Shown: in pieces, positions 14,944 through 45,835 of the stretch | How the letters are laid out: every line of letters begins with the position of its first letter | Position numbering within the stretch: position 1 is the stretch's first letter | NCBI GenBank assembly: GCA_036399055.1 | Contig: DASWNX010000023.1 | Coordinates: 1 to 45,835 of the forward strand | Length of the DNA stretch: 45,835 nt | Direction: 5' to 3' | Origin: Jatrophihabitans sp. | Lineage (GTDB): Bacteria > Actinomycetota > Actinomycetes > Mycobacteriales > Jatrophihabitantaceae | Made by a program: the position numbers and the translations under genes | The notes under the pieces: generated by a model | Told to the model about the DNA's origin: nothing | What the model saw: only the letters and a program-made list of their open reading frames with translations | Database searches by the model: none

Positions 14944-15618
14944 GTGCGCCTGGTGATAGCTCATTGCATGGTCGACTACGTCGGGCGGCTGACCGCCCAC
15001 CTGCCGATGGCGCCGCGGCTGCTGATGATCAAGGCCGACTGCTCGGTGCTGGTGCACTCCGACGGCGGGTCCTACAAGCCGCTGAACTGGATGTCCCCGC
15101 CGTGCACCTTCGTGGAGTCCGAGCTGCCCGAGGGCGCCGCGCTCTGGACGGTCACCAACAAGTCCGGCGACCAGTTGCTGATCACCGTCACCGAGGTGCT
15201 GCATGACTCCAGCCACCAGCTCGGGATCGACCCGGGGCTGGTCAAGGACGGTGTCGAGGCGCATCTGCAGGTGCTGCTGGCCCAGCACATCGAGACCCTC
15301 GGCGCGGGTTACCGGCTGGTCCGGCGGGAGTTTCCGACCGCGATCGGACCGGTCGACATCATGGCCCGCGACCCCCAGGGCGTGTCGGTGGCGGTGGAGA
15401 TCAAGCGGCGAGGCGACATCGACGGCGTCGAGCAGTTGACCCGCTACCTGGAACTGCTCAACCGCGACCCGTTGCTGGCGCCGGTCAAGGGTGTCTTCGC
15501 CGCCCAGGAGATCAAGCCGCAGGCCCGCACGCTGGCCACCGACCGCGGCATCGCCTGCCTGGTGCTGGACTACGACCTGCTGCGCGGGGTGGACGACCCG
15601 TCCCAGCGGCTGTTCTAG
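14944..15618 (+). CDS. nucS: Mismatch-specific endonuclease NucS/EndoMS
   Basis: Cuts both strands at certain base mismatches and provides the MutS/MutL-independent mismatch repair of actinobacteria, in concert with the sliding clamp. It is 224 aa, the usual size. The N-terminal DNA-binding domain is followed by a RecB-like nuclease domain with GPVDIMARD (D138) and VAVEIKRRG (E152, K154), the metal-binding D-x-n-ExK core. The C-terminus [10 protein letters not shown] is compatible with a clamp-binding tail. The homologue in M. tuberculosis is Rv1321. It has a GTG start, apparently leaderless. Confidence 0.95.
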
Positions 15619-27308: not shown

Positions 27309-27863
27309 TCAGGCTCCGCTTGGACGGCTCTGTTCCGGCGACCGCAGCTGTTCGATGCCGGGATGGCCGGCCAGCGCTTGGAGCTGCAGCACGCACCATG
27401 GCGACAGCTGCGGGGTCCGGCCCGAGAGCACGTCGTCCCAGTCCAGCCATCGGCTCTGCTCGACCTCCGAGGGCCGCAGTGTCGGCTCGCCACTGACCCG
27501 GACGCCGAAGACGGGGCAGATCTCGTTCTCCACCACGCCGTCGAGCTCGGCTCGGTAGCGGAAGTCGGGGAGCAGCTCGATCACCTCGTCGGCGCTCAGC
27601 CCGAGCTCGAAGTCCAGCCGCCGGCGCAGGGCCTGCTCGTTGGACTCCTCCGGCATGGGGTGACCGCAGCAGCTGTTGGTCCAGACCCCGGGCCAGGTCT
27701 GCTTGGAAAGCGCTCGCTGGGTCAGCAGGAACCGGCCCCGCGCGTCGAAGACGTAGGCCGAGAACGCCAGGTGCAGTGGAGTGCGGTCGTGGTGGCTGCT
27801 CGCCTTCGGGGCGGTTCCCACCGTGACGCCGGCCTCGTCGACCAGCACGATCAGCTCAGTCAT
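27309..27863 (-). CDS. idi: Isopentenyl-diphosphate delta-isomerase, type I
   Basis: Converts IPP to DMAPP, balancing precursors for prenyl chain synthesis (184 aa). It is a Nudix-fold protein with NSCCGHP (catalytic Cys at 65/66) and VENEICPVF (E112, E114), the residue pair of type I isomerases. WLDWDDV lies near the C-terminus. GAAGGGA precedes the ATG. It diverges from the P450 gene, and the two share an intergenic region containing a perfect inverted repeat. Its position next to the prenyl synthase operon implies a role in terpenoid supply. Confidence 0.94.
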   Translation of the reverse strand: MTELIVLVDEAGVTVGTAPKASSHHDRTPLHLAFSAYVFDARGRFLLTQRALSKQTWPGVWTNSCCGHPMPEESNEQALRRRLDFELGLSADEVIELLPDFRYRAELDGVVENEICPVFGVRVSGEPTLRPSEVEQSRWLDWDDVLSGRTPQLSPWCVLQLQALAGHPGIEQLRSPEQSRPSGA

Positions 27864-27886
27864 GGCTTCCCTTCACCGCGCCGGTT

Positions 27887-27902
27887 CGACTCTCACGAGT
27901 CG
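27887..27902. promoter_or_regulatory. Perfect inverted repeat in the idi/P450 divergent promoter
   Basis: CGACTC-TCAC-GAGTCG is a perfect 6-base inverted repeat, 24 bases from the idi start and 26 bases before the candidate P450 -10 box. It is a candidate cluster regulator site, or it could form a hairpin in the idi leader. Confidence 0.4.
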
Positions 27903-27927
27903 ATGGCAATCCACCGTCTGCGAACTC

Positions 27928-27933
27928 TAGACT
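27928..27933 (+). promoter_or_regulatory. Candidate -10 box of the first P450 gene
   Basis: TAGACT fits TANNNT and lies 29 bases before the first possible ATG (27963). Transcription would start near 27940. No -35 box is evident. Confidence 0.35.
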
Positions 27934-27962
27934 GGCGCGGCGTCAGGCGTCAGTCGTCGGCG

Positions 27963-29255
27963 ATGAGAAGAATGGGGCTGTCGATGACTGTCGCCGAAGA
28001 GCAGATTCGGGATTACCCGTTCGAGCCCTTTCGAGGCGATTTGCCGCATGAACTGCTGGAGATGGTGCACACCAAGCCGGTTTCCAGAGTCCGGATTCCC
28101 GACGGCCGGGTGGTCTGGCTGGTGGTGGGTTACCCCGAGACGAGCCTGGTGCTCTCGGACCCGCGGTTCGCCCGGCACAACTCCGAGATCATGGCAGCCG
28201 GACAGCCCGAAGGTTGCCCGGTCGGCGCCGTCGAAGCGCTCGAAGCCGATAAGGCCGATAGCGCCCCGGCGTCACGGGAGTCGGGCGAGGCCGGGCAGTG
28301 CCCAGCCGGTCTGCGCCAGCTGAGCATGGACGGCAAGCCGCACCATGACCTGCGCCGGTTGGCGGCCCGGGCCTTCACCGCCCGGCGGATCGAGGCCTAC
28401 CGCCCCCGGGTGCAGGCGATCACCGACGAGCTCATCGACGCCTTGATGGCAGTCGGGCCGCCGGGGGACCTGGTCGCGGGCCTGGTGGTGCCGCTGCCGG
28501 TGATCGTCACCTGTGAGCTGCTCAGCATTCCGGTCGCCGACCGCGACAAGATCGCCGACTGGGCCAACGACATGATGTCGCTGACCGCGCACGGCCAGGC
28601 CGGCGCCGCCCAGGCCGAGGCCGAGCTGCGGGCGTACCTGCTGCGGCGGCTGACCGCCCGGCGCGACGAGCCGGGCGAGGACCTGCTCTCGTCCTGGATC
28701 GCGACCCAGGCTGGTTCTGACCTGAGCGACGCCGAGATCGTCGGACTGGCCATCGCGGTGCTGATCGGCGGTCGTGAGATCAGCTCGACCAGCGCCGGCA
28801 TTCGCGCGCTGTTCCAGCACCCGACGGCGCTGCGGCGGCTGCGCGAGGACCCGTCGCTGCTGCCGGCGGCCGTGGAGGAGATCCTGCGCTACACCTCGGT
28901 GAGCCCGATGTTCCTGGTGCAGACGGTGACCGAGGACCTCGAGCTGGGCGGGCAGCAGCTGCGCGCCGGCGACGGCGTGATGGCGGTGCCGTGGGCGGCC
29001 AACCGGCACGCGGCGGCCTTTGACGAACCCGACCGCTTCGACCTCGACCGGCCCCAGAACAACCCGCACCTGACCTTTGGCTTCGGCCCGCACTTCTGCC
29101 TGGGAGCGGCGCTGGGCCGGCTGCAGGTCGAGATCGCCATCGGCACCCTGCTGCGCCGGATGCCGGCGCTGGCGCCGGCATCCGATCTGCGGGATTTGCC
29201 TTGGCGCGACGAGCGAATCAACTGCGGGCTGGCTGAGTTTCCAGTGACCTGGTAG
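27963..29255 (+). CDS. Cytochrome P450 with atypical I-helix
   Basis: Soluble bacterial P450 (430 aa from ATG 27963; ATGs at 27972 and 27984 are alternatives and the start is uncertain). The heme loop FGFGPHFCLG has C379, and the K-helix EEILR is intact. The I-helix reads GGREISS (residues 269-275) where P450s normally have AGxET. The acid is present but the proton-relay Thr is Ile, as in the small group of P450s that use another route for oxygen activation. The substrate-entry region carries DGKPHHDLRR instead of the usual DPPEHTRLR. It lies beside idi and ahead of the terpenoid operon, so a terpenoid substrate is likely. Confidence 0.85.
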   Translation: MRRMGLSMTVAEEQIRDYPFEPFRGDLPHELLEMVHTKPVSRVRIPDGRVVWLVVGYPETSLVLSDPRFARHNSEIMAAGQPEGCPVGAVEALEADKADSAPASRESGEAGQCPAGLRQLSMDGKPHHDLRRLAARAFTARRIEAYRPRVQAITDELIDALMAVGPPGDLVAGLVVPLPVIVTCELLSIPVADRDKIADWANDMMSLTAHGQAGAAQAEAELRAYLLRRLTARRDEPGEDLLSSWIATQAGSDLSDAEIVGLAIAVLIGGREISSTSAGIRALFQHPTALRRLREDPSLLPAAVEEILRYTSVSPMFLVQTVTEDLELGGQQLRAGDGVMAVPWAANRHAAAFDEPDRFDLDRPQNNPHLTFGFGPHFCLGAALGRLQVEIAIGTLLRRMPALAPASDLRDLPWRDERINCGLAEFPVTW

Positions 29256-29280
29256 CCGGCCGCGGCACGGGGAGGCGCTC

Positions 29281-29307
29281 ACCGCTGTGATCGAAACAGC
29301 GGTTATC
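29281..29307 (+). terminator. Hairpin after the first P450 gene
   Basis: ACCGCTGT-GATCGAA-ACAGCGGT is a perfect 8-base stem with a 7-base loop, 25 bases after the P450 stop and followed by TTATC. There is no long T-tract, but many actinobacterial terminators lack one. Confidence 0.5.
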
Positions 29308-29834
29308 AGACAAATGCCCAAGTTGAATAGTCATAGACAACTCAGCATTTCTGGTCAGTTATTCGGCAAGTCGATTCGCCGGCCCCGACGATTATCTCCA
29401 TTGGCTAGCGGACGATTCGAACCTTGACTTAGTGTCTGCGCTACCCGCACGACTCAGCACGATGCGGCGAGCACGCCGGCCGCCTGACGACGTTGTGCCC
29501 GAACAGAAAGCCCACCTGGTGCCCTTCTCCTCTGACGCAGCCACCTCCCACGACCCGAACGTCGGGCCGGCGGGCCTGATCGAGCATCGGACTGCCCGGC
29601 CTGATCGCTTTGGAGACGGCCCTGGCGGTTCAGGTGGCGGCTTGGTTGAGAGCGGTCGCGCAGATGGCGGCCGGAGTGCCTGAGGTGGACGCGACAGCGG
29701 AGGCGGTGGACGTCGATCGAGTGTCACAGGAACACGCATGCGCCTAGTGCCGGCCAGGCGCCCCACCCACTAGCACTTGGCGCCGGACCCGTGCCGCGGA
29801 TGTTGTCCACCTGCCACTCTGGAGACCTCAGGCC
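29304..29834. other. Non-coding stretch before the terpenoid operon
   Basis: About 530 bases with no convincing gene. The first part (about 29304-29420) is much richer in A and T than the surroundings and includes a loose inverted repeat AGTTG-N12-CAACT (29331-29352) and a TTGACT box (29424-29429). The open frames at 29432-29683 (+) and 29392-29766 (-) have low-complexity Arg/Pro/Gly composition and overlap each other, so they are not accepted. It probably contains the operon's regulatory region. GGAGA lies about 10 bases before the ATG at 29835. Confidence 0.5.
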
Positions 29835-30851
29835 ATGACTATTACCGGATCGGTTCCCCGAGCGCTGCTCGATGACCTGGCGCGCAGTCGCACCGGCGAA
29901 CTGCTCTACGACGCGCTGGCGACGCGCTGGCCCGCGGACTGCGACGAGCTGAACGCCATCGCCCGCTACGCCCTGTTGCCCGCCGGCAAGTTCCTGCGGC
30001 CGGTGATGACCATGACGGCGGCCGAGGCGGTCGGCGGTGAGCCAGGTCAGGTGTTGCCGGCCGCGCTGGCGATGGAGTACCTGCACGTGGCCACCCTGAC
30101 TCACGACGACATCATCGACGGCGACATGCTGCGCCGGGGACGTCCCACGGTGCACGTCGCGCACGGTCTGGCGCACGCGATCGTCGCCGGTGATCACCTG
30201 ATCTTCGCCGCGTTCACCGGGATAGCCGAGTGCCGGGCGGCCGGGCGGCGCGACCCGGCTGTCGTGGAGTCGGTGGCGGTGCTGGCCGAAGCCGGCTCGG
30301 ACCTGTGCCGGGGCCAGATGCTGGAGGCGCGGCTGGTCGGCGACATCACCGCCGAGCCGGAGACCTACCTGGAGATGGCTCGGTTGAAGACCGGGGCGCT
30401 GTTCCGGGCGGTCTGCCAGATCGGCGCCCTGCTGGGCGGCGCCGACAGCGAGCAGGCCGCGGCGCTGGGCCGTTACGGCTCTGACCTCGGGGTGGCCTTC
30501 CAGATTCGGGACGACCTGATCCTGTTCGCCGATCCCGAGGTCAGCGACAAGCCCACGGGCAGTGACCTGGCCAACGGCCGGCCCACCCTGCCGGTGCTGA
30601 TGGCCTACCAGACCAGCGACGCCGACACCCGGCTGGCGATGGGCGCCGCCCTGACCCGCCGCTCGGCCGAACCCGCCGAGTTCGACGAGTTCCGGTCGCT
30701 GCTGATGGCCACCGACGCCCTGCGGGGCTGTCAGGAGCACGCCAGCGAGTACGGCCGCCGCGCCCTGGATGAGCTTTCCCGGCTGCGGCCCTCGCGCAGC
30801 GTCGACCTGCTTGCCGGCATCGTCCGGTGGGCAATCACCACCAGGCCATGA
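29835..30851 (+). CDS. Polyprenyl diphosphate synthase (probably geranylgeranyl diphosphate)
   Basis: Builds a linear prenyl diphosphate from IPP and allylic primers (338 aa, all-trans isoprenyl synthase fold). The first aspartate-rich motif is D91-D-I-I-D95. The second is QIRDDLILF (D226-D227), with the last Asp of DDxxD replaced by Leu, a variation also seen in other actinobacterial enzymes. The fifth residue before the first motif is Ala, not an aromatic residue, which favours C20 or longer over C15. GKFLRP is the IPP-binding motif. It is the first gene of a seven-gene overlapping operon and overlaps the UbiA gene as ATGA. Confidence 0.88.
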   Translation: MTITGSVPRALLDDLARSRTGELLYDALATRWPADCDELNAIARYALLPAGKFLRPVMTMTAAEAVGGEPGQVLPAALAMEYLHVATLTHDDIIDGDMLRRGRPTVHVAHGLAHAIVAGDHLIFAAFTGIAECRAAGRRDPAVVESVAVLAEAGSDLCRGQMLEARLVGDITAEPETYLEMARLKTGALFRAVCQIGALLGGADSEQAAALGRYGSDLGVAFQIRDDLILFADPEVSDKPTGSDLANGRPTLPVLMAYQTSDADTRLAMGAALTRRSAEPAEFDEFRSLLMATDALRGCQEHASEYGRRALDELSRLRPSRSVDLLAGIVRWAITTRP

Positions 30852-31897
30852 GCGCTCAGCCCGCTGGCCCCCGGCTCCGCGTCGGGGCGATCGCGCATCT
30901 GCAGACCTGGCGGCTCTACACCTTCTGGTACGTCGGGTTCCTCGGACTGGCCGGCGCCAGCCTGAGCCCGGGGCAGCATGAGGGCCTCCGGCTGTTCGCC
31001 GCCTGGGCGGTGCCCACGCTCGGCTGGCTCGGCGGGCACTACCTCAGCGACTACTTCGACCGTGAGCTCGACGCCATCGCCAAGCCGCACCGGCCGATCC
31101 CGTCCGGCCGGCTGCCGGCCCGGGTGGCGCTGGCCTGCGGGGTGCTGGCGATGCTGTGCGTCGCGGCTTCGGCGGTGCTCACCGGCTGGCGCACCAGCCT
31201 GATCGCGGTGCTGGCGGTGGCCGCGGTGCTGGCCTACGGGCTGCGGCTCAAGGCCCTGGGCATCGCCGGCAACCTGGTCCGCGGAGCCCTCGGAGCGCTG
31301 GCGCTGCTGTACGGGGCGGCCACCGTGCCGCCGTTGGACTGGACGGCGCTGCTGCCGTTCGTCGCCGCTTTCTGGCTGCACGACACCTGCTCGAACCTGG
31401 TCGGCACACTGCGCGACGTCGAAGGCGACCGGGCCGGTGGCTACCGCACCCTGCCGGTCACCCATGGCGCCGCGACCGGGGTCCGGGTCGCGTTGGGCCT
31501 GTACATCCTGACGCTGCTGGCGGCCGCCTGGGGCGGGGCCCTGGCCGAACCCGCCGCTGGAAGGGCCTGGTACCCGGCGGGGCTGGCCGGGGTCGCGGTG
31601 TTCGGCCTCGCCGCCATCGTGCCGATGCTGAGCCGGCGTCACCAACTGCCCGCCCGGGACGCCCTGCGCGCCCACGAGCTGCTGGTGCTGGAGCGGCTGT
31701 GCCTGGCCGCGGCGGTGATCGGGCTGGGCCTGGGAGCGTGGAAGGCGGCGCTGCTGCTGGCGCCGGCGCTGATCCTGACCTGGTGGTCACAGCGCACTCT
31801 GCGAAGCTGGTACGAATTCGGTTCCGGCGCCGCCGGCGAGCACCTGCCGACTGCCGAGCACCCGCCGAGCGTCCCGAAAGGAAGCACCTATGCCTGA
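30848..31897 (+). CDS. UbiA-superfamily membrane prenyltransferase
   Basis: Integral membrane enzyme (349 aa, about eight or nine helices) expected to transfer a prenyl chain to an acceptor or to cyclise it. First Asp-rich motif: S67-D68-Y-F-D71-R-E-L-D75, with Ser where NDxxDxxxD has Asn, followed by KPHRPIPSGRLP. Second motif: LRDVEGDRAGGYRTLPV (D190, D194). These resemble the chlorophyll-synthase/DGGGP-synthase branch. The acceptor is not evident because no aromatic-acid pathway genes are nearby. ATG 30848 overlaps the previous stop as ATGA. The end overlaps the cyclase gene by 8 bases. Confidence 0.88.
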   Translation: MSAQPAGPRLRVGAIAHLQTWRLYTFWYVGFLGLAGASLSPGQHEGLRLFAAWAVPTLGWLGGHYLSDYFDRELDAIAKPHRPIPSGRLPARVALACGVLAMLCVAASAVLTGWRTSLIAVLAVAAVLAYGLRLKALGIAGNLVRGALGALALLYGAATVPPLDWTALLPFVAAFWLHDTCSNLVGTLRDVEGDRAGGYRTLPVTHGAATGVRVALGLYILTLLAAAWGGALAEPAAGRAWYPAGLAGVAVFGLAAIVPMLSRRHQLPARDALRAHELLVLERLCLAAAVIGLGLGAWKAALLLAPALILTWWSQRTLRSWYEFGSGAAGEHLPTAEHPPSVPKGSTYA

Positions 31898-33605
31898 AGT
31901 CTCCCAGCGGGCCGAGCACGCCATCCGGCTGGGCGCCGAGGAGCTATTCGGCCGCCAGCGCGAGAACGGCGCCTTCGGCGACGACCCGCCGAGCTCGGTG
32001 CTGGGAACCGCGGGCGCGATCACCGCTCTGCGGTTCGCCGATCCCGCCGGCTCGGCGGAGCTGGTCGCCGCCGGCAGCCAATGGCTGCGTTCGGCGCAGC
32101 TGCCCGACGGCGGCTGGGGCGGAGTGCTCGGCGCCGGCAGCGAGCCGGTCGCCACCTCGGTGGCCGCCGCGACCTTGCAGATCGTCGACCCCGACGCCAG
32201 CGCCGAGGCGATCGCCGCCGGCCGGGCCAGGCTCGAGCAGCTCGGCGGCCTCGCGGCGGTGACCGATCCGGCGGTGCTGCTGCTGTGCAAGACCTTCGGC
32301 ATGCTGGCCGGCTTCCTGCAGCCGGAGGACCTGCGCCGGTTACCGCTGGAGATCGTGCTGTTCGACAGGGTCAGACGGCAGAACGTCTCGTTCCGGACCG
32401 CGCCGTTCGCGGCGATGGCACTGGCCCAGTCGGTCACCGATCCGGCGCGCGGGCTGCGTGGCAAGACCTCGCGGCTGGCCCGCGGCAAGGCGCTGCGGCT
32501 GCTTGGCGAGGTCTATGAGCACGAGGGCCGGACCGGGGACTTCAGCGAGGACCCGTGGCCGTCCGCGCTGGTCTGCCTGAGCCTTGCCAGAGCCGGCCTG
32601 GCGCCGGACATGGTCGCTGCCAGTGCGGGCTACCTGCGCCGTTCGGTTCGCCCCGACGGCTCCTGGGACGCCGTCAGCAACCTGGACCTGACCCGGTCCG
32701 GCTTCGCGGCCACCGGCCTGATCGCGGCCGGCTACGCCGCCGATCCACGGCTGGAGCCGACCCGGCAGCTGTTTCACCGTTGCCAGCAACGCCAGGAGTT
32801 CACCGTGCTGGCCTGCCCTCCGGGCGGTTGGAGCTTCTCCGGCGCGCGCGGCTGGCCGGTGACGCTGGAGTCGGCCGAGATCATCGCCGCGCTGGCCGGG
32901 ATGCCCGGCCACCAGAGCGACCAGTCGCTGCGAACCGGCCTGGAGTGGTTGCGCGGCCGGCAGGACAGCAGAGGCTCGTGGAGCCTGTGGGTCCGCGACA
33001 CCAAGCTGGCCAACGACGGCCCGTGCCCGAGCATCACCAGCCAGGCCATCACGGCGCTGCTGGACGCGGGCGAGCCGGCCGACGGCCCCGCGGTCAGCAA
33101 GGCGGTGGGCTGGCTGCTCACCCAGCAGCGGCCCGACGGGACCTTCGACAACCTCTGGTACCGCGATCACACCACCGGCACCTCCGCGGTGCTGGCCGCG
33201 CTGGGCCGGGCCGGCAAGGCCGGTGACCCGGTGGCCGAGCGGGCCCGGCGGTGGCTGCTGGACACCCAGCGCCCGGACGGCTCGTGGGGCGACGGGGCCG
33301 AGTCCGACAGCTCGGTGGAGGAGACGGCCTGGGCCCTGCACGCGCTGCTCGAGGCCGGGCTGGACCCGGCCTCGGCGCCGGCCAGCTCGGCAGTCGACTG
33401 GCTGGTGAACGCCCAGCAGCCCACCGGCGGCTGGCAGCCCAGCCGGGTCTGCGCCTACATCCGGCACCACATGCACTACCCCAACGGCGCCATCACCCGA
33501 GGCCTGGCGCTGCGCGCGCTGGGGCTGTACCAGAGCAAGACCCAGACCGGGGCGGGTTCGGCGTCCGCCGTCCACAGCCCAGCCAGCAGTGAGGGGACCG
33601 GCTGA
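31890..33605 (+). CDS. Squalene-cyclase-fold terpene cyclase-like protein lacking the DxDD/DCTAE acid motif
   Basis: 571 aa made of alpha/alpha-barrel repeats with many QW-type motifs (LPDGGWGG, RPDGSWDAV, RQDSRGSW, RPDGTFDNLW, RPDGSWGDG, QPTGGW). Such proteins protonate and cyclise prenyl chains (class II). At the catalytic position, after PPGGWSFSGARGWP, the sequence is V324-T-L-E-S-A-E330. Hopene cyclases have DxDD there and oxidosqualene cyclases have DCTAE. The catalytic Asp position holds Leu, followed by Glu327. A second nearby motif, N264-L-D-L-T268, holds an Asp. GAAAGGAAG precedes the ATG. It may be a cyclase using another acid, or may have another function. It overlaps both neighbours. 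Confidence 0.82.
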   Translation: MPEVSQRAEHAIRLGAEELFGRQRENGAFGDDPPSSVLGTAGAITALRFADPAGSAELVAAGSQWLRSAQLPDGGWGGVLGAGSEPVATSVAAATLQIVDPDASAEAIAAGRARLEQLGGLAAVTDPAVLLLCKTFGMLAGFLQPEDLRRLPLEIVLFDRVRRQNVSFRTAPFAAMALAQSVTDPARGLRGKTSRLARGKALRLLGEVYEHEGRTGDFSEDPWPSALVCLSLARAGLAPDMVAASAGYLRRSVRPDGSWDAVSNLDLTRSGFAATGLIAAGYAADPRLEPTRQLFHRCQQRQEFTVLACPPGGWSFSGARGWPVTLESAEIIAALAGMPGHQSDQSLRTGLEWLRGRQDSRGSWSLWVRDTKLANDGPCPSITSQAITALLDAGEPADGPAVSKAVGWLLTQQRPDGTFDNLWYRDHTTGTSAVLAALGRAGKAGDPVAERARRWLLDTQRPDGSWGDGAESDSSVEETAWALHALLEAGLDPASAPASSAVDWLVNAQQPTGGWQPSRVCAYIRHHMHYPNGAITRGLALRALGLYQSKTQTGAGSASAVHSPASSEGTG

Positions 33606-34591
33606 TGAGCATGCACGACCTGTCGATGAACGAGTCCCGCTTCGGCCCGCTGCCCAGCGTGCGCGCGGTCGTCGAGCAGGGCGCCGCGCAGCTGCACCGC
33701 TATCCCTCGCACACCGCGGCCGGGCTGGTGAGCGCGCTGGCCAGCCACCTGGACGTGCCCGCGGCCGAGGTGCTGGTCGGCCCGGGTTCGGCCGGGCTGA
33801 CCCAGAACCTGATCACCTCGCTGGGCCCCGGCCGCGACGAGGTGGTGTACGCGGCGCTGTCGTTCGAGGCCTACCCGCTGATGGTGCTCAACGCCGGCTG
33901 CCGGCCGGTCGCGGTGCCGATGGCAGGCGACACCCATGACCTGGACGCGATGGCAGCCGCGGTCACCGAGCGGACCCGTTGCGTGCTGATCTGCAATCCG
34001 AACAACCCGACCGGCGCCGTGCTCGGCCGCGCTGAGCTGGCGGCTTTCCTGGACCGGGTGCCGGCTTCGGTGCCGGTGATCATCGATGAGGCCTACCGGG
34101 AGTTCGTCACCGATCCCGAAGCAGCCGACGGGCTGGAGCTGCGGGCCGGCCGGGACAACGTGTGCGTGTTGCGGACCTTCTCTAAGGCCTACGGCCTGGC
34201 CACCCTGCGGGTCGGCTACGCCGTGGCGGCAGAAGCCATCGCCCAGCGGGCCCGGATGACCGGCCTGGTCTTCTACCCCGGCGGCCTGGCCCAGGCAGCC
34301 GCGGTGGCGTCGCTGGAGCCTGAGGCTGACAAGCAGGTGCTCGAGCGCTGCGCCGAGTTCGCCGGAGTCCGTGCCCAGCTCACCGAGGACCTGCGGGCGG
34401 CGGGGCTGCCGGTCCCCGACTCGCAGGCGAACTTCCTGTGGTTGCCGATCGGCGCCGACACCGAGGACTTCGCCGCCCGCTGCCACGCCGCCGGCGTCCT
34501 GGTGCGGGCCTATCCGGGCGTGGGGGTCCGGGTGACCGTCGGCGCCGACGAGGCCAACCGGCTGTTGCTGAGCGCGGTGGCGCCCGGATGA
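33605..34591 (+). CDS. PLP-dependent aminotransferase, HisC/aromatic aminotransferase-like
   Basis: Class I/II fold-type I aminotransferase (328 aa). It has the HisC-like opening DLSMNESRFGPLPSV, phosphate-binding GPGSAGLTQN, the NPNNPTGAVL block, the aspartate in IIDEAYREF and the PLP lysine K194 in RTFSKAYGLATLRVGY. It is shorter than many HisC proteins (about 350 aa). Lying inside the terpenoid operon away from any his genes, it more likely aminates an oxidised terpenoid or sugar, or makes an aromatic keto acid for the UbiA acceptor, than acts in histidine synthesis. ATG overlaps the cyclase stop by one base. Its stop overlaps the next start as ATGA. Confidence 0.85.
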   Translation: MSMHDLSMNESRFGPLPSVRAVVEQGAAQLHRYPSHTAAGLVSALASHLDVPAAEVLVGPGSAGLTQNLITSLGPGRDEVVYAALSFEAYPLMVLNAGCRPVAVPMAGDTHDLDAMAAAVTERTRCVLICNPNNPTGAVLGRAELAAFLDRVPASVPVIIDEAYREFVTDPEAADGLELRAGRDNVCVLRTFSKAYGLATLRVGYAVAAEAIAQRARMTGLVFYPGGLAQAAAVASLEPEADKQVLERCAEFAGVRAQLTEDLRAAGLPVPDSQANFLWLPIGADTEDFAARCHAAGVLVRAYPGVGVRVTVGADEANRLLLSAVAPG

Positions 34592-35799
34592 GGGTGCTGG
34601 TCTCCAGCTGGGGTTGGCGCTCGCACTTCTATCCGCTGGTCCCGCTGGCCTGGGCGCTGCGCTCGGCCGGCCACGAGGTGCTGGTCGCCAGCCAGCCCGG
34701 CATGGCCGAGGTCATCCTCGGCGCCGGCCTGCCGGCCGTCGCGGTCGGCGAGGACCTGGACTTCATCGAGGTGTTCAGCGGCCAGGTCGGGCGGGTCGCG
34801 ACCCGGGCTGAGCGGGCTCGCGGCGCGGCTACCCCGGATGCGCTGCGACCGGCGGTGACCCCCGACGGCGGAGTGGTCCGGTTCGCCGCCGCGATGGTCG
34901 GCGACCTGGTCGCCTTCGGCCGTGAGTTCGATCCCGACCTGGTCGTGTTCGAGCCGCAGAACTTCGCCGCCGCGATCACCGCGGCGGCACTGGGGGTGCC
35001 CGGGGTGCGCCAGCTCTGGGGCCCGGACGAGACCACCCAGCTGGACCTGGACACCGCTGCCATCCTCGGGCCGCTGGCTGACCGGGTCGGCGTGGCGCCG
35101 GCCGATGTCCGCCCGGCCGGCTCGCTGATGCTGGACCCGTGCCCGCCGGGCATGCAGGTCCGGCTGGCCGGGCCGTCCCAGCCGGTCCGCTTCATCCCCT
35201 ACAACGGGCCCAGCATGCTGCCCGACTGGCTGCGCACGCCGCCCGAACGCCCCCGGGTCTGCCTCACCTGGGGCACCGTGATGGCCGCGCTGGGCCTGGA
35301 CCCGGCGCGGGACCTGGCGGCGATGATCGCCGAGGTGGCCAGCCTCGACGTCGAGCTGGTGCTGGCGCTGCACCCGGCTCAACACGCCGGGCTGACCGAC
35401 CTGCCCGGCAACGTCCGGCTGGCCCGGACACCGCTGGCGCTGCAGCTGGTGCTGCCCAGTTGCCAGGCGCTGATCCACCAGGGCGGGGCCGGCAGCATGA
35501 TGACCGCGCTGGCAGCCGGCGTCGCGCAGGTCGTGGTGCCGCTGGTCGCCGACCAGCATCTCAACGCCGAGCGGCTGGTCGCCATCGGCGCCGGGCGCAG
35601 CCTGCCGCAGGGCGCCGCCGGGCCGACGCAGGTGCGGCGACTGGTGGCCGAGCTGCTCAGCGGCGCCCCGGAACGGCGACGAGCGGCCGAGGTCGCCGAC
35701 CAGATCCGCGCGATGCCCGCGCCGTCGCAGATCGTGCCGGTCTTGGAACGGCTTTGCAGCACCACCCGTGCCGGATCACTGTCAGGAGCGCACCTGTGA
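34588..35799 (+). CDS. MGT/EryCIII-type nucleotide-sugar glycosyltransferase
   Basis: GT1-family (GT-B fold) enzyme (403 aa) that adds an activated sugar to a small-molecule acceptor. The N-terminal acceptor domain opens RVLVSSWGWRSHFYPLVPLAWALRSAG with the conserved His. The C-terminal donor domain has LTWGTVMAAL, ALIHQGGAGSMMTALAAGVAQVVVPLVADQHLNAERL, the macrolide/aglycone glycosyltransferase signature. No deoxysugar pathway genes are in the window, so the donor comes from elsewhere. It is an operon member with 4-base overlaps on both sides (ATGA, GTGA). Confidence 0.88.
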   Translation: MRVLVSSWGWRSHFYPLVPLAWALRSAGHEVLVASQPGMAEVILGAGLPAVAVGEDLDFIEVFSGQVGRVATRAERARGAATPDALRPAVTPDGGVVRFAAAMVGDLVAFGREFDPDLVVFEPQNFAAAITAAALGVPGVRQLWGPDETTQLDLDTAAILGPLADRVGVAPADVRPAGSLMLDPCPPGMQVRLAGPSQPVRFIPYNGPSMLPDWLRTPPERPRVCLTWGTVMAALGLDPARDLAAMIAEVASLDVELVLALHPAQHAGLTDLPGNVRLARTPLALQLVLPSCQALIHQGGAGSMMTALAAGVAQVVVPLVADQHLNAERLVAIGAGRSLPQGAAGPTQVRRLVAELLSGAPERRRAAEVADQIRAMPAPSQIVPVLERLCSTTRAGSLSGAHL

Positions 35800-36980
35800 G
35801 CCAACCGATCAGCTACCCGCTGCCGCCGCCGCCCTCGATCTACGAGCCGCTGCCGCAGCTTGTGGAGTACCAGCGCGAGCAGCCGGTGGTGCAGGTGGTG
35901 ATGGCCGACGGCACCGAGGCCTACCTGGTGTCGCGCTACGCCGACGTCCGGCAGATCCTGGTGGACCGACGCTTCAGCCGGGAGGCCGTCAAGGGCCCGG
36001 GCGGGCCGGCCAAGGAGCTGGGTGAGCTGGAGACCGAGTCGCTGATCGGGATGGACCCGCCGCACCACACCAGGTTGCGCAAGCTCGTGTCCCATGCCTT
36101 CACCCCGCGCCGGGTGGAGGGGCTGCGGCCTCGGATCGCCGAGCTGGTGAACGAGCTGCTGGACAAGATGCTGGTGGGGCCGGGTCCGGTGGACCTGGTC
36201 GAGGGTTTCTCGACTCCGCTGCCGGTGGCGGTGATCAGCGAGCTGTTCGGCATTCCGGAGTCCGAGCGGAACAAGTGCAAGGAGTGGTCCGACACCATGA
36301 TGGGGGACTGGCAGCTCGACCCCGAGGGCACCGCGGCCGCCGTCCAGGGCTTCTCGGAGTTGATCGACAGGCGCCGGGCCCACCCGGGCGAGGACCTGAT
36401 CACCGCGCTGCTGAAGGTCAACGTCGACCAGGACCGGCTCTCAGACCAGGAGCTGCTGATGGTCAGCATCGGCGTGCTGATCGGCGGCCACGAGACCACC
36501 ACCACCCAGATCAACCTGTTCGTCCTGACCCTGCTGCGCTTTCCCGAGCAGCTGGCCGCGCTGCGAGCCGATCCGAGCAAGGTCCCCGATGCCGTCGAGG
36601 AGCTCAGCCGGTTCATCCAGCTGGGCGAGACCGGCGTGATGCTGCCCCGGATCGCGACCGAGCCGATCGAGCTGAGCGGCACGCTGATCCCCGCGGGCGC
36701 CACCGTGCTGCCGGCCTTCATGGTCGCCAACCGCGATCCGGCGATGTTCTCCGAGCCGAACGGGCTGGATCTGAACCGGCCGAGCAACCCGCACCTGGCC
36801 TTCGGCGCGGGCGTGCACCACTGCCTCGGCGCGCAGCTGGCCCGGGTGGAGCTGCAGGAGGCGCTGGCAGGACTGCTGCGCCGGATGCCCAACCTGCGGC
36901 TGGCGGTGCCCGAGTCCGAGCTGCGCTACACCCAGGGCCTGGTGGTCCGGCGGCTGGAAGAGCTGCCGCTGTGGTGGTGA
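35796..36980 (+). CDS. Cytochrome P450 (canonical)
   Basis: 394-aa soluble P450, GTG start overlapping the glycosyltransferase stop. All conserved parts are normal: MDPPHHTRLRKLV, the I-helix GGHETT (E233, T234), ExxR in VEELSR, and the heme loop FGAGVHHCLG with C343. It probably hydroxylates the terpenoid made by the operon. Ferredoxin and reductase partners are not encoded nearby. It differs from the first P450 in keeping the I-helix acid-alcohol pair. Confidence 0.93.
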   Translation: MSQPISYPLPPPPSIYEPLPQLVEYQREQPVVQVVMADGTEAYLVSRYADVRQILVDRRFSREAVKGPGGPAKELGELETESLIGMDPPHHTRLRKLVSHAFTPRRVEGLRPRIAELVNELLDKMLVGPGPVDLVEGFSTPLPVAVISELFGIPESERNKCKEWSDTMMGDWQLDPEGTAAAVQGFSELIDRRRAHPGEDLITALLKVNVDQDRLSDQELLMVSIGVLIGGHETTTTQINLFVLTLLRFPEQLAALRADPSKVPDAVEELSRFIQLGETGVMLPRIATEPIELSGTLIPAGATVLPAFMVANRDPAMFSEPNGLDLNRPSNPHLAFGAGVHHCLGAQLARVELQEALAGLLRRMPNLRLAVPESELRYTQGLVVRRLEELPLWW

Positions 36981-38314
36981 CGCAGCCCGTCGGAAAGTCA
37001 GCTCTGGTGATCGGCGCCGGGATCGCCGGACTGTGCGCGGCCCGCACGCTGGCCGACCGGTTCGAGCAGGTGCTGGTGCTCGATCGTGACGAGCTGCCCG
37101 ACACCGCCGTCCCCCGGCGTGGGGTGACCCAGGGCGGGCACGGCCACGTCCTGCTGGTCTCGGGGCAACGGGCGCTGGACGAGCTGTTCCCGGGCCTGAT
37201 GGACGAGCTGGTCGAGGCCGGCGGGGCGCGCTTTGACCCGGGCGCCGAGCTGTCTTTCTACCGGTTCGGCGCGATCTGGCCCCGGGTGCCCTCCGAGCTG
37301 CGGCTGGTGACCTTCAGCCGGCCGTTGCTGGAGCTGGCGATCCGCCGCCGGGTGGCGGCGCTGCCCGGGGTGAGGATTCGCGACGGGGTGTCGGTGACGG
37401 CCCTGCAGGGCGCCGAGGGCCAGGTCACCGGAGCGCGGCTGGACGACGGCGAGGTGATCGGAACCGACCTGATCCTCGATTGCACCGGCCGCGGCGCCCG
37501 GTCCAACCACTGGCTGGGCGCCCTGGGCTTTCCGGCTCCGCGGGTCAGCGAGGTCAAGGTCGGCGTCGGATACGCGACCCGGTTCTACCGCCGCTCACCG
37601 GGAGACCTGGCCGAGGGCTCGGCGGTCTTCTCGCTGCCGAGCCCGCCCGAGGACAGGCGCGCCGGGCTGGCCCTGCCGGTGGAGGGCGACCGCTGGCTGA
37701 TCTCCCTCGGCGGCTGGCACGACGACTTCCCCCGCGACCTGCCCGCCTTCGAGCAGCATGCCCGGGCCTTGCCGCATCCGGGCATCGCGCGGCTGATCGA
37801 GCGGTGCGAGCCCGTGACGGAGCTGTCGGTGGTGCAGTACCCGAGCAGCCGGCGACGCCACTTCGAGGAGCTGTCCGAGGTGCCCGGCGGGTACCTGGCG
37901 CTCGGCGACGCGCTGTGCAGCTTCAATCCGATCTACGGCCAGGGCATGACCTGCGCGGCGCTGCAGGCCCTCGAGCTGGGCAGGCTGCTGGACAGCCGCC
38001 CCGGGCCCGCCGCTGCCGGTCCGATCCCGGAGCTGTCCATCCAGTACTACCTGCAGGCCGCCAAGATCGTGGCGACGCCGTGGCAGTTCGCCACCGGCGG
38101 CGACTTCAGCTATCCCGAGACCAGCGGGGATCGCCCGCGCGGCGTCGGGCTGAAGAACGCCTACGCCAAGCGGGTCCAGCAGGCCTCGATGGTCGATCCC
38201 CAGGTGCGCAAGGCGTTCACCTCGGTGCAGCACCTGATCGCCGATCCCGCCGTGCTGCTCAAGCCGGCGATGGTGGCACGGGTGCTGCGAGGGGCCCGCA
38301 AGGCGCCGCGCTGA
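36977..38314 (+). CDS. FAD-dependent monooxygenase/oxidoreductase
   Basis: 445 aa, GTG start overlapping the P450 stop as GTGA (in-frame GTGs at 36971 and 36974 are alternatives). The FAD Rossmann motif GAGIAG (13-18) ends with an acidic beta-2 (VLVLDRDELP). PRRGVTQGGHGHVLL and GYLALGDALCSFNPIYGQGMTCAALQALELG match PHBH-type flavoprotein hydroxylases and the epoxidase-like branch common in natural-product clusters. The C-terminal region ends in a basic helix. It probably oxidises or epoxidises the terpenoid. It is the last gene of the operon, and the next gene is convergent. Confidence 0.85.
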   Translation: MTQPVGKSALVIGAGIAGLCAARTLADRFEQVLVLDRDELPDTAVPRRGVTQGGHGHVLLVSGQRALDELFPGLMDELVEAGGARFDPGAELSFYRFGAIWPRVPSELRLVTFSRPLLELAIRRRVAALPGVRIRDGVSVTALQGAEGQVTGARLDDGEVIGTDLILDCTGRGARSNHWLGALGFPAPRVSEVKVGVGYATRFYRRSPGDLAEGSAVFSLPSPPEDRRAGLALPVEGDRWLISLGGWHDDFPRDLPAFEQHARALPHPGIARLIERCEPVTELSVVQYPSSRRRHFEELSEVPGGYLALGDALCSFNPIYGQGMTCAALQALELGRLLDSRPGPAAAGPIPELSIQYYLQAAKIVATPWQFATGGDFSYPETSGDRPRGVGLKNAYAKRVQQASMVDPQVRKAFTSVQHLIADPAVLLKPAMVARVLRGARKAPR

Positions 38315-38338: not shown

Positions 38339-38650
38339 TCAGGCGGCCGGTGACTTGTGCAAATTCTTGTCAACGTGTGCCGCTACGGCGAGCAACCAGG
38401 CACGGTGACTCTGCCACCCATCGCCAGGCGGGTAATAGACGATGCCCAGTTGGCGAAGGCGCTGCTGGATTTCCTGCTCACTCTGGCACTGGCTCAGTAC
38501 TTGCTCCACATCGGCACGAAAGTGCGGAGCCGATTGCGGTTCACCATCGGTGAAGTCGTCGACCGCATGCCACAGGTCCGGGTAGTCGTCGGCCCAATCT
38601 TCGTGAAGGTAGGCACCCAGAAAGAGCTCTAACGCTGCCAATCGCTTCAT
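38339..38650 (-). CDS. CdiI-type immunity protein
   Basis: Small acidic protein (103 aa) resembling contact-dependent-inhibition immunity proteins. It opens LELFLGAYLHEDWADDYPDLWHAV, the family signature, followed by an acidic helix-rich body. Its job would be to bind and block the RNase toxin encoded directly upstream on the same strand, with which it overlaps as ATGA. GC content is clearly lower than in the surroundings. No homology to the terpenoid genes. Confidence 0.82.
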   Translation of the reverse strand: MKRLAALELFLGAYLHEDWADDYPDLWHAVDDFTDGEPQSAPHFRADVEQVLSQCQSEQEIQQRLRQLGIVYYPPGDGWQSHRAWLLAVAAHVDKNLHKSPAA

Positions 38651-39966
38651 AGCTCCACCATTGCCGTGTGTATCCGGTATCCCGTTGTCATAGTTGCGCT
38701 GCGCTTGAGCACCAACCTTATTCCCGAAGCTTCGACGGGACCAACAGCCTCTCTTATGATTGCAACGCCTACCGGATGTGGCATCCGACCGTTTAGGACC
38801 AAGCTTCTTGAACCATCTACAAGCCAGCGCTCGACCCCGCGCGCGTTTGCGTCGAGAAGCTGAGACAGGGAACTCTCAGCAATCTGACGATTGTGAAATG
38901 TCGAGGCGATGCCGAGGTTGGGTTCGGTGGCTAGCCGGTTGCGCAGGTAGTCCTCGCTCTTGCCGACGTGCTTGGCCAGGGTATGTCCGCCGTCTAGTCC
39001 CTCGTGGGCCATCAGTCCGCCGCCAGGAACGAGGTGAACGACGTTGTCAGCAGCTCGTAAACCACGGACGGCGGCGCCGCCGATCGGGATCGCGGCGGCT
39101 AGTCCCAGGCCGAGGTCGGTGTTGCTGACCTGCTCGCCGTGGGCGCGCCGGGTCGCGTCCACGGCCAGCTGGGTGAGGGCGAGGAAGGTCGCGGCGGCCA
39201 GGCAGGCGGTTGCCGCGGGTGGGCAGATGAGCAGCAGACCCAGGCCGAGCACGGTCAGGTCGGTGGTCAGCGCGCTGAGGCAGTCGGAGATGTTGTGCAG
39301 TGACGGGTGCCTCATCGCCCGGGCGAAGGGGCTGAGGTGCCGGGAGGCCGCCGCGGTGAGCTGGTGCGCCAAGCCGCCGAGGCCGCCGAGGCCGTGTCGG
39401 TCGCGGGTCGGGTCAGCCTCGTCGGCCCGGGACAGTGCCCGGATGCAGTGCTCCAGGGCGTCGGCCCACCGGTCATAGCCGGCCTTGAAGTCTCGGGCGG
39501 TCAGCAGCAGGTCCACTGTGTCGGGCGCCGGCCAACCTTGCTGGTCGGCGGCTCCGAAGGCTGCCGGCGCCTGCTGGGAGCGGGCCAGCTGCTGGACCAG
39601 CTCGTCGTGGCGTTGGCGCAGCCGGCTGCGGGCGGTGACCAGCCGGGGCGTGGTCTCGTCCAGGGCGCCGGCGTAGGCGTGCAACGCGCTGGCGTACTGC
39701 TCATAGCGGTCGGCGGTGGCTGTCATCGAGGGCGCGTGGGCGTGGATCTGCTCCACGAACGCCCGATGCGCCGGGCCGCTCCATAACGGCGTGTCCACCC
39801 GGGACAGCAGCGCCGAAGCCACTCGGCGCAGGTCTGCGGCCTGGGCGCCGGTCCGGCGGGCCGCGGCCCGGATCTGCGCCGGGTCTCCGGCCGGCATGCG
39901 CTGGCCCAGGCACAGCCGCGCCGCCGACAACCCGTCACCGGGCAGCTCGAACCGGCTAACCGCCAT
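38647..39966 (-). CDS. Polymorphic toxin: WXG-like N-terminus with RNase A-like CdiA-CT domain
   Basis: About 439 aa. The N-terminal about 100 residues are a helical WXG100/type VII secretion-like module (PLWSGPAHRAFVEQI, then YEQYASALHAYAGALDE). A linker with two hydrophobic segments follows (around LTVLGLGLLLICPPA). The last about 135 residues match the bacterial RNase A-like CdiA-CT toxin: AHEGLDGGHTLAKHVGKSE, ASTFHNRQIAE, WL-x-DGSRSLVLNG and the terminal TTGYRIHTAM. The first His and Lys and the C-terminal residues are the likely catalytic set. ATG 39966 is taken as start; GTG 39975 is the alternative. The immunity gene follows with an ATGA overlap. No ESX secretion genes are in the window. 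Confidence 0.85.
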   Translation of the reverse strand: MAVSRFELPGDGLSAARLCLGQRMPAGDPAQIRAAARRTGAQAADLRRVASALLSRVDTPLWSGPAHRAFVEQIHAHAPSMTATADRYEQYASALHAYAGALDETTPRLVTARSRLRQRHDELVQQLARSQQAPAAFGAADQQGWPAPDTVDLLLTARDFKAGYDRWADALEHCIRALSRADEADPTRDRHGLGGLGGLAHQLTAAASRHLSPFARAMRHPSLHNISDCLSALTTDLTVLGLGLLLICPPAATACLAAATFLALTQLAVDATRRAHGEQVSNTDLGLGLAAAIPIGGAAVRGLRAADNVVHLVPGGGLMAHEGLDGGHTLAKHVGKSEDYLRNRLATEPNLGIASTFHNRQIAESSLSQLLDANARGVERWLVDGSRSLVLNGRMPHPVGVAIIREAVGPVEASGIRLVLKRSATMTTGYRIHTAMVEL

Positions 39967-40080
39967 GGCCACCACGCCGCCCGGGCCTCATCCGCATGCC
40001 GCAGCACGTTAGGCAATTCCGCCCGGTCAGCGCGTCGAGTTATCCACAGCCCAGCTCGGTGAGCCTGGCGGCAGCCGACC

Positions 40081-44174: not shown

Positions 44175-45835
44175 ATGGATTCCGAGGAGATCGAGGCGGG
44201 CCGCGCCCGCTGGCAGCAGCGCTACGAGAAGTCCCGGATCGCCGAGCGCGATTTCACCACCCTGTCCGGCGTCGAGGTCGAGCCGGTCTACGGGCCGCCC
44301 GAGGGCACTTCTGACCCTCGCTTCGAGCAGATCGGCTGGCCGGGGGAGTTCCCGTTCACCCGCGGCCTGCACGCCAGCGGATTCCGCGGCAAGCCCTGGA
44401 CGATCCGGCAGTTCGCCGGCTTCGGCAACGCCCAGCAGACCAACGAGCGCTACAAGATGATCCTGGCCTCCGGCGGCGGCGGGCTCTCGGTCGCCTTCGA
44501 CATGCCCACGTTGATGGGCCGGGACTCCGATGACCCGCGCGCGCTGGGCGAGGTCGGGCACTGCGGCGTGGCGATCGACTCCGTCGCCGACATGGACGTC
44601 CTCTTCGACGGCATCGACCTGGGCTCGGTCACCACCTCGATGACCATCTCGGGGCCGGCAGTCCCGGTGTTCTGCATGTACGTGGTGGCCGCCGAGCGCC
44701 AAGGGGTGGACGTCGCCCGGCTCAACGGCACCCTGCAGACCGACATCTTCAAGGAGTACATCGCGCAGAAGGAGTGGATCTACCCTCCCGAGCCGCACCT
44801 GAAGCTGATCGGCGACCTGATGGAGTACGTCGCCGAGGGCATCCCGGCGTACAAGCCGCTGTCGGTGTCGGGCTACCACATCCGCGAGGCCGGAGCCACG
44901 GCGGCGCAGGAGCTGGCGTTCACCCTCGCCGACGGCTTCGGCTACGTCGAGCTGGGCCTGTCCCGCGGCCTGGACATCGAGCAGTTCGCGCCGGGCCTGT
45001 CGTTCTTCTTCGACGCCCACCTGGACTTCTTCGAGGAGATCGCCAAGTTCCGGGCAGCACGGCGGATCTGGGCGCGCTGGTTGCGCGACGTCTACGGCGC
45101 CAAGACCGTGAAGGCACAGCAGTTGCGGTTCCACACCCAGACCGCCGGGGTGTCGCTGACTGCCCAGCAGCCGGAGAACAACATCGTCCGGACCGCCATC
45201 GAGGCGCTGGCCGCGGTGTTGGGCGGCACGAACTCGCTGCACACCAACGCCCTGGACGAGGTGCTGGCCCTGCCCACCGACAAGTCCGCCCAGATCGCGC
45301 TGCGCACCCAGCAGGTGATCGGCGAGGAGATCGGTGTCCTCAACGTCGCCGACCCGCTCGGCGGCTCGTGGTACGTCGAGGCGCTGACTGACAAGATCGA
45401 GGCCGAGGCGGAGAAGATCTTCGCGCACATCAAGGAGATGGGCGGCGACGGCACCATGACCGCCGGCCTGCTGCGCGGCATCGAGGACGGCTGGTTCACC
45501 GGTGAGATCGCCGAGTCGGCCTTCCGCTACCAGGTCGCGCTGGAGAAGGGCGACAAGCGGGTCGTCGGGGTCAACGTCCACCAGGGCGAGTACGGCGAGC
45601 CGCTGGAGATCCTGCGGGTCTCCCACGAGGTCGAGCTGGAGCAGGTCGAGCTGGTGCGCAACCGGCGCGCCGGCCGGGACTCCGCCGCCGTCGACGAGGC
45701 GCTCAAGCGAATGGTGGCTGCCGCCGAGAACGGTGAGAACACCGTGCCGGCGATGCTGGACGCGGTCCGCGCCGAGGCGACCCTGGGCGAGATCTGCAAC
45801 GCGTTCAAGCCGCTGTGGGGCGAGCACCGCGAGCC
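44175..45835 (+). CDS. icmA: Isobutyryl-CoA mutase-like large subunit (IcmA-type acyl-CoA mutase), 3'-truncated
   Basis: TIM-barrel subunit of an adenosylcobalamin-dependent acyl-CoA mutase; 553 residues are visible before the window ends. Blocks such as [48 protein letters not shown] and [13 protein letters not shown] are typical. The two substrate-pocket residues are F80 (TIRQFAGFG) and Q198 (EYIAQKEW), the pair reported for isobutyryl-CoA mutase. Methylmalonyl-CoA mutase has Tyr89 and Arg207. It should therefore interconvert isobutyryl- and n-butyryl-CoA or a similar non-carboxylated substrate. No B12 domain is visible; family members of this length rely on a separate small subunit, expected beyond the edge. 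It is preceded by a twin operator. Confidence 0.85.

Follow-up and report, generated by a model that had tools for sequence, protein, structure and literature searches.

The DxDD motif serves to identify type II terpene cyclases; among 964 bacterial type II synthases its central Asp has been described as nearly invariant, with a conservation of almost 100% (PMC9814783). Here we examine a block of terpenoid genes of Jatrophihabitans sp., which encodes a protein of the squalene-cyclase fold lacking this motif, and the family to which that protein belongs. The block lies in a stretch of 45,835 nucleotides, hereafter the window, which is an entire contig (G000:C23) of the 4.5 Mb assembly of its own genome, G000. 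Genome mining that relies on the motif could overlook a conserved family without DxDD, and such a family would reveal how an enzyme acting on epoxides can do without the acid or shift its position.

The closest precedent that we found for the aminotransferase, polyprenyl synthase and UbiA genes of the block is the zigralone (zig) cluster of Micromonospora zingiberis, which likewise belongs to an actinobacterial host and holds an aminotransferase, a polyprenyl synthase, a UbiA-like transferase and several P450s, and in which an oxygenated prenyl chain is then cyclised (PMC13307353). The role proposed there for ZigA (aminotransferase), ZigB and ZigC (transferase) is the assembly of a prenylated indole-pyruvate (PMC13307353), an analogy that supports, without proving, an aryl-pyruvate acceptor in the window. 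In described gene content the two differ: the zig cluster encodes a membrane cyclase resembling Pyr4, together with a P450 epoxidase, a thiamine pyrophosphate (TPP)-dependent enzyme and a DUF6875 protein (PMC13307353), whereas the block of the window encodes a flavoenzyme, a glycosyltransferase and the protein of squalene-cyclase fold without DxDD. Neither a Pyr4-like cyclase nor a TPP-dependent ring-expansion enzyme is present in the operon, each gene of which belongs to another family; the remaining genome was not searched for a Pyr4-like gene.

Phenalinolactone and tiancilactone (Streptomyces) also bear comparison. The phenalinolactones are terpene glycosides, and a squalene-monooxygenase homologue is believed to epoxidise geranylgeranyl diphosphate (GGPP) (PMC5618424), but the cluster comprises 35 genes (PMC10301674). 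MstE of the merosterol pathway (Scytonema; PDB 6sbb-6sbg) shares the fold of the window protein and, according to the PDB titles, is bound to geranylgeranyl dihydroxybenzoate, but it is shorter, with chains of about 340-352 residues, the window protein having 571. Squalene-hopene cyclase (SHC) and the bacterial class II synthases SsDMS, PtmT2 and Tpn2 differ from the window cyclase, which has no DxDD. To our knowledge, no flavoenzyme has a role in the MstE/merosterol pathway. An earlier, sequence-only reading of the window did not recognise the gene set from a characterised pathway, and the open-access literature that we searched agrees with it, as it contained no characterised cluster with this set; this is weak evidence, subscription papers and curated collections being outside its scope. 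Passages of the papers on gromomycin and olindenone describe no matching cluster.

A Squalene-Cyclase-Fold Family without DxDD

The window cyclase (31890-33605, + strand; SQHop_cyclase_C 3e-27, SQHop_cyclase_N 1e-21) is predicted to adopt the squalene-cyclase didomain fold (AF2 pLDDT 90.8), with SHC and SsDMS as the best structural matches, SHC first. Where DxDD is expected, at residues 324-327, it reads VTLE. The DLT at residues 266-268 was considered as an equivalent of the motif and was set aside, because alignment to SHC and to the DTDD of the Acrocarpospora member of the family (L037) places the motif at 324-327.

The family was found in 25 loci besides the window, 19 of them in Micromonospora; the other hosts are G002, G008, Actinoplanes flavus, Acrocarpospora phusangensis, and G411 and G446, two genomes from another family of the same class. 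Counts out of 26 refer to the window plus these 25 loci, since the public loci L024-L029 overlap loci of G-numbered genomes and were not recounted. Out of 80 loci, 69 with complete same-strand cyclase-like open reading frames (ORFs; 480-720 residues) entered the motif alignment and 11 did not, and the tree took in 35 of 74 rows. In the motif alignment DxDD is missing in 25 of 26 family members, L037 being the member that retains DTDD, and is kept in 60 of 61 relatives outside the family. The fourth position of the motif is Glu or Asp in all 26 rows (Glu327 in the window). The sole non-family row without DxDD reads WPVSDCTAE, and WPVTLESAE in the window resembles its frame; WPVSDCTAE is an oxidosqualene-cyclase-type motif. 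With DxDD gone, cyclisation by this protein, one of the possibilities named in the sequence-only reading, would need a different acid or an activated substrate.

The distribution of the family is patchy. The genus of G037 can be assigned to Micromonospora through G213, since over the genes compared the locus of G213 is identical to L025 of Micromonospora wenchangensis. Among 160 Micromonospora genomes the cyclase (E ≤ 1e-40) was detected in 19 and the UbiA protein (E ≤ 1e-20) in 20, which include the same 19; the twentieth UbiA match (G108) is only 32% identical, and the idea that it marks a zig cluster was dropped, as a stretch of 20 kb there gave no synthase, aminotransferase or cyclase match. 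In a sample of the class (394 genomes, including the window's own) the cyclase (E ≤ 1e-60) occurs in four genomes and UbiA in three, all among those four, and close cyclase copies are present in three of the nine genomes of the window's genus, some of which are incomplete. The window cyclase is 91, 84 and 62% identical to those of other loci, 84% being the value for the same-genus relative G008, whose contig stops within the aminotransferase gene. All of the 25 other loci have the synthase, 24 have UbiA (not L155), 22 the aminotransferase (not L030, L037 and L155) and 20 the glycosyltransferase; in 22 of the 24 loci with UbiA, its gene and that of the cyclase share a strand and are at most 35 bases apart, an adjacency which indicates that the grouping is not due to chance. 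The KASIII, ABC and AMP-ligase genes found beside many Micromonospora copies are missing from L141 (save a 32% ABC match) and L146, and are therefore treated as neighbours and not as core genes. Since related clusters occur in named species of Micromonospora (wenchangensis, chalcea, humi, mirobrigensis), a product should be accessible in cultured bacteria.

Two Types of Flavoenzyme Accompany the Cyclase

The gene that closes the operon (36977-38314, + strand; DAO 5e-11) had been described simply as a flavoenzyme. This is borne out, and the assignment can be narrowed: among PDB sequences the protein matches MonCI (7e-58) and Lsd18 (4e-53) over nearly its full length, the next family following at 5e-5. 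MonCI, which is treated as an epoxidase (PMC10560226), and Lsd18 are polyether epoxidases acting on polyketides, whereas the window gene stands at the end of a terpenoid operon. An enzyme of this type also ends the block in the sister genome G002; there, between the P450b and the MonCI-type gene, streptomycin-adenylyltransferase-like and nucleotidyltransferase-like genes were observed (L021:4184-5874).

A flavin monooxygenase not of the MonCI type is present in 23 of the 26 loci, in 22 of them on the same strand and at most 92 bases downstream of the cyclase; the one locus remaining besides the window and G002 is truncated. Copies of this common type from L025 (Micromonospora wenchangensis), L030 and L037 gave a match to FAD_binding_3 and a weak one to squalene epoxidase. 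The common enzyme is found neither in the window nor in the G002 contig, and its best matches elsewhere are weak (33% in G000; 34%, and a partial one of 39%, in G002); the two types were not found together in the 26 loci. Taken with the loss of DxDD, the company of a flavin oxygenase suggests, at the level of sequence, that the family cyclises epoxides. An epoxide step is proposed mainly because the flavoenzymes are exchanged and MonCI is regarded as an epoxidase, and two exchangeable flavoenzymes offer a direct test of the shared step.

Aminotransferase, Prenyltransferase and Chain Length

The aminotransferase (33605-34591, + strand; aminotransferase domain 8e-49) scores 388 bits on PRK03321, for which the cut-off is 374, and keeps the catalytic Lys (SKAYG in the window). 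Its match to PDB 4r2n, a 'putative phenylalanine aminotransferase' (2.7e-76, the next at 6.5e-36), is far closer than those to HisC structures. A second Pat-like gene exists in each of G000, G002, G037 and G092 and is 48-49% identical to the cluster aminotransferase (49% in G000), while the cluster enzymes of G002, G092 and G037 are 86, 65 and 62% identical to that of the window; the cluster gene is therefore a dedicated duplicate in these genomes. The sequence-only reading had the prenylated product 'then aminated'. A Pat-type aromatic transaminase paralogue is more likely to supply the acceptor than to aminate the terpene, and we consider its action on an amino-acid-derived acceptor the likelier one.

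The UbiA-family membrane prenyltransferase (30848-31897, + strand, with an alternative longer GTG start at 30827; PF01040 1e-31) has digeranylgeranylglyceryl phosphate (DGGGP) synthase (8e-11) and chlorophyll synthase (8e-9) as its nearest solved relatives in the PDB, and the Asp residues of both motifs are kept in all 25 rows. In L037 the UbiA domain belongs to a single frame of 851 residues with HMGL and homocitrate-synthase-like domains (L037:4344-6899), near which a radical SAM gene lies; this locus may make a different acceptor.

The trans-polyprenyl diphosphate synthase (29835-30851, + strand; PF00348 1e-58) shows the DDIID and RDD motifs, the former within VATLTHDDIID. C20 (GGPP) synthases follow the rule of a bulky residue at position -5 before the first Asp motif. 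At this position the window has Ala, as does the trans-isoprenyl diphosphate synthase 3oyr, unlike the GGPP synthase 1wy0, which has Tyr; the chain had been thought to be probably C20, a length that is not established given the Ala. Ala is found in 25 of 26 rows and Phe in L155, a locus with no UbiA in 20 kb that might represent a free terpenoid branch.

Proposed Pathway and Alternative Explanations

That the block encodes a genuine specialised terpenoid or meroterpenoid pathway of some kind is nearly certain, and the domain searches support its earlier description as a terpenoid cluster with a glycosyltransferase and oxidases. From the observed gene content, conservation, predicted fold, motif loss, two kinds of flavoenzyme, transaminase paralogy and insertion, we infer, tentatively and as one possibility to be set against several others, an epoxide-cyclising route to a glycosylated prenylated (mero)terpenoid, including its reactions, acceptor, order of steps and the role of Glu327. 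The isomerase encoded by idi and the polyprenyl synthase would make the prenyl diphosphate, and the Pat-type transaminase would use an aromatic amino acid to provide an acceptor of the aryl-pyruvate type, to which UbiA would join the prenyl chain. The MonCI-type flavoenzyme would then epoxidise the chain, and the DxDD-less cyclase, which keeps the acidic Glu327 at the fourth motif position, could open the epoxide and close the rings; the P450s would hydroxylate the product, and the EryCIII-like enzyme would add a sugar. In favour of this route we count the shared occurrence of UbiA and cyclase, the flavoenzymes that accompany the family, the loss of DxDD and the precedents of MonCI, zigralone, MstE and phenalinolactone. 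It is more doubtful that the family as a whole consists of DxDD-less cyclases acting exclusively on epoxides of UbiA-prenylated aryl-pyruvates, with a partner swapped between flavoenzyme subfamilies (MonCI in the window), and yields an undescribed class of glycosylated meroterpenoids.

Several observations weigh against this proposal. The common flavoenzyme has 2x3n (PqsL) as its nearest solved structure (3.7e-24), above squalene monooxygenase (5.9e-13), and may therefore have a function other than epoxidation. The flavoenzyme also occurs in L037, the member with DTDD, hence DxDD loss and flavoenzyme are not strictly coupled, and in L154 the flavoenzyme gene is 5.4 kb from the cyclase, on the opposite strand. 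The L154 aminotransferase is only 46% identical to that of the window, no closer than housekeeping Pat-like genes (48-51%), and may be independent of it; together with the three loci that have no aminotransferase, this indicates that members of the family need not share one acceptor. UbiA is missing from L155, where synthase, cyclase and flavoenzyme are present, the operon holds no other gene for an aromatic acceptor, and ZigA was dispensable in the zigralone heterologous host (PMC13307353). Moreover, the Asn of UbiA motif 1 (NDxxDxxxD), present in DGGGP and chlorophyll synthases, is replaced in all 25 rows, by Ser in 4 and by Gly in 21.

This last substitution and the composition of L155 would suit a pure terpenoid glycoside, in which the flavoenzyme epoxidises the prenyl diphosphate, the cyclase makes a bicyclic diphosphate, UbiA acts on this as a terpene cyclase and, at a later stage, a ketone or aldehyde receives its amino group from the aminotransferase. 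Such a role of UbiA has precedents, as a UbiA-type diterpene synthase acts after the class II enzyme PtmT2 in Streptomyces platensis (PMC10301674) and a likely UbiA cyclase is encoded in 14% of 342 ent-copalyl diphosphate (ent-CPP) synthase clusters (PMC9814783). We regard this route as somewhat unlikely: the nearest solved UbiA proteins are transferases (in a comparison that included no proven UbiA cyclase), the aminotransferase is a Pat paralogue, and aminotransferase, synthase and UbiA are the early set proposed for zigralone (PMC13307353). The loss of DxDD in 25 of 26 members, set against the near-invariant central Asp of the bacterial synthases mentioned at the outset, could also mean that the protein has given up acid-driven cyclisation and binds or orients a prenylated intermediate, or catalyses another reaction, the rings being closed elsewhere or not at all. 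We consider this unlikely, as four observations argue for a retained role in cyclisation: the conservation of the protein at 91, 84 and 62% identity, its predicted didomain fold, which SHC matches best, the acidic residue (Glu or Asp) that occupies the fourth motif position in 26 of 26 rows, and the neighbouring flavoenzyme.

It is less probable still that the cluster of the window is degenerating and yields no product, or a simpler congener, having lost an O-methyltransferase and a second glycosyltransferase; remnants of both lie within 29492-29835 (see below), but the other genes of the cluster have uninterrupted frames and share 85-91% identity with their sister counterparts. An origin in primary lipid or quinone metabolism, which the sequence-only reading had named as what would overturn it, finds an echo in the weak likeness of UbiA to archaeal lipid and chlorophyll synthases. 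It is contradicted by the patchy spread (3 of 9 genomes of the genus, 19 of 160 Micromonospora), by the insertion of the cluster between conserved neighbours and by the EryCIII-like glycosyltransferase and P450s, and we consider it highly improbable. The preferred reading is the epoxide-cyclising pathway, with the strength given above.

Organisation and Surroundings of the Gene Block

The seven genes from 29835 to 38314 all lie on one strand, and their ORFs were confirmed at the positions first given. With the preferred starts, the overlaps recomputed are 4 bases (synthase/UbiA), 8 (UbiA/cyclase), 1 (cyclase/aminotransferase) and 4 for each of the three following junctions (aminotransferase/glycosyltransferase, glycosyltransferase/P450, P450/flavoenzyme), as in the sequence-only reading; its notion of one operon-like unit is supported. 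The genes completing the block are the EryCIII-like GT-B glycosyltransferase (34588-35799, +; PF21036/PF06722, 2e-41; PDB 2yjn 9.6e-61) and the cytochrome P450 termed P450b (35796-36980, +; PF00067 1e-28). The sugar is not predicted, because no match to an NDP-hexose 2,3-dehydratase was obtained in G000 (one of six genomes searched had one); a 2-deoxysugar donor was set aside for the same reason. A promoter and terminator scan gave 1 and 0 sites, counts within or below those of shuffles.

Upstream of the block is another cytochrome P450, P450a (27984-29255, +), whose scores on the NCBIfam P450 models are below the cut-offs; the haem Cys is retained in both P450s. A copy, 54-56% identical, occurs in 18 of 19 Micromonospora loci, and comparison with these sequences places the start probably at 27984, ATG 27963 being also open. 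Beyond it, on the opposite strand, is idi (isopentenyl-diphosphate isomerase; 27309-27863, -; NCBIfam NF002995/TIGR02150, both above curated cut-offs). Both had been noticed as adjoining the block, and idi belongs with the cluster, as it lies inside the insertion described next.

In the window, meaB and an acyl-CoA dehydrogenase gene flank the cluster. When meaB was sought in six genomes of the same genus without the cluster, it was present in four (G003, G004, G006 and G007), in all of which the two genes adjoin, the distance between the aligned ends being 3.6 kb in G004 and 0.8-0.9 kb in the other three; no match to idi, to the cluster proteins or to the toxin protein mentioned below lies between them. 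Since the flanking genes are neighbours in these four relatives, idi, the cluster and the toxin gene represent extra, inserted sequence in the window. The search for idi returned a single match in G000 and none in G001, while in G003, G004 and G006 an idi of 50-54% identity lies at another site.

The 579 bases between P450a and the synthase (29256-29834, +) contain remnants, in collinear order, of two genes, one for an O-methyltransferase and one for a second glycosyltransferase, both intact in the sister locus L021 (G002). That of the O-methyltransferase spans 29492-29718 and is firmest at 29625-29718; of the second glycosyltransferase, the start is recognisable at 29726-29797 and the end at 29776-29835. 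Blastn against L021 gave 71% over 94 nt (E = 1e-7) and 74% over 73 nt (E = 4e-6), and by tblastn the last 20 residues of the second glycosyltransferase are 80% identical (E = 1e-4), while the N-terminus of the O-methyltransferase is traced by 51% over 35 residues at E = 0.004 only. The sequence comparison thus makes the window cluster a reduced version relative to G002. The O-methyltransferase of the Micromonospora loci was also considered as an arylpyruvate C-methyltransferase, an idea that gains no support from its nearest solved relatives, which are O-methyltransferases (3i53, DnrK).

Directly after the operon, a CdiI_2 immunity-like gene (38339-38650, -) overlaps the gene of a protein that has an RNase A-type CdiA-CT toxin domain and matches WXG100 below threshold (38647-39975, -). 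Elsewhere, the window carries two genes of the methylmalonyl-CoA-mutase family (12877-14889 and 44175-45833) and a NucS endonuclease gene (14968-15618).

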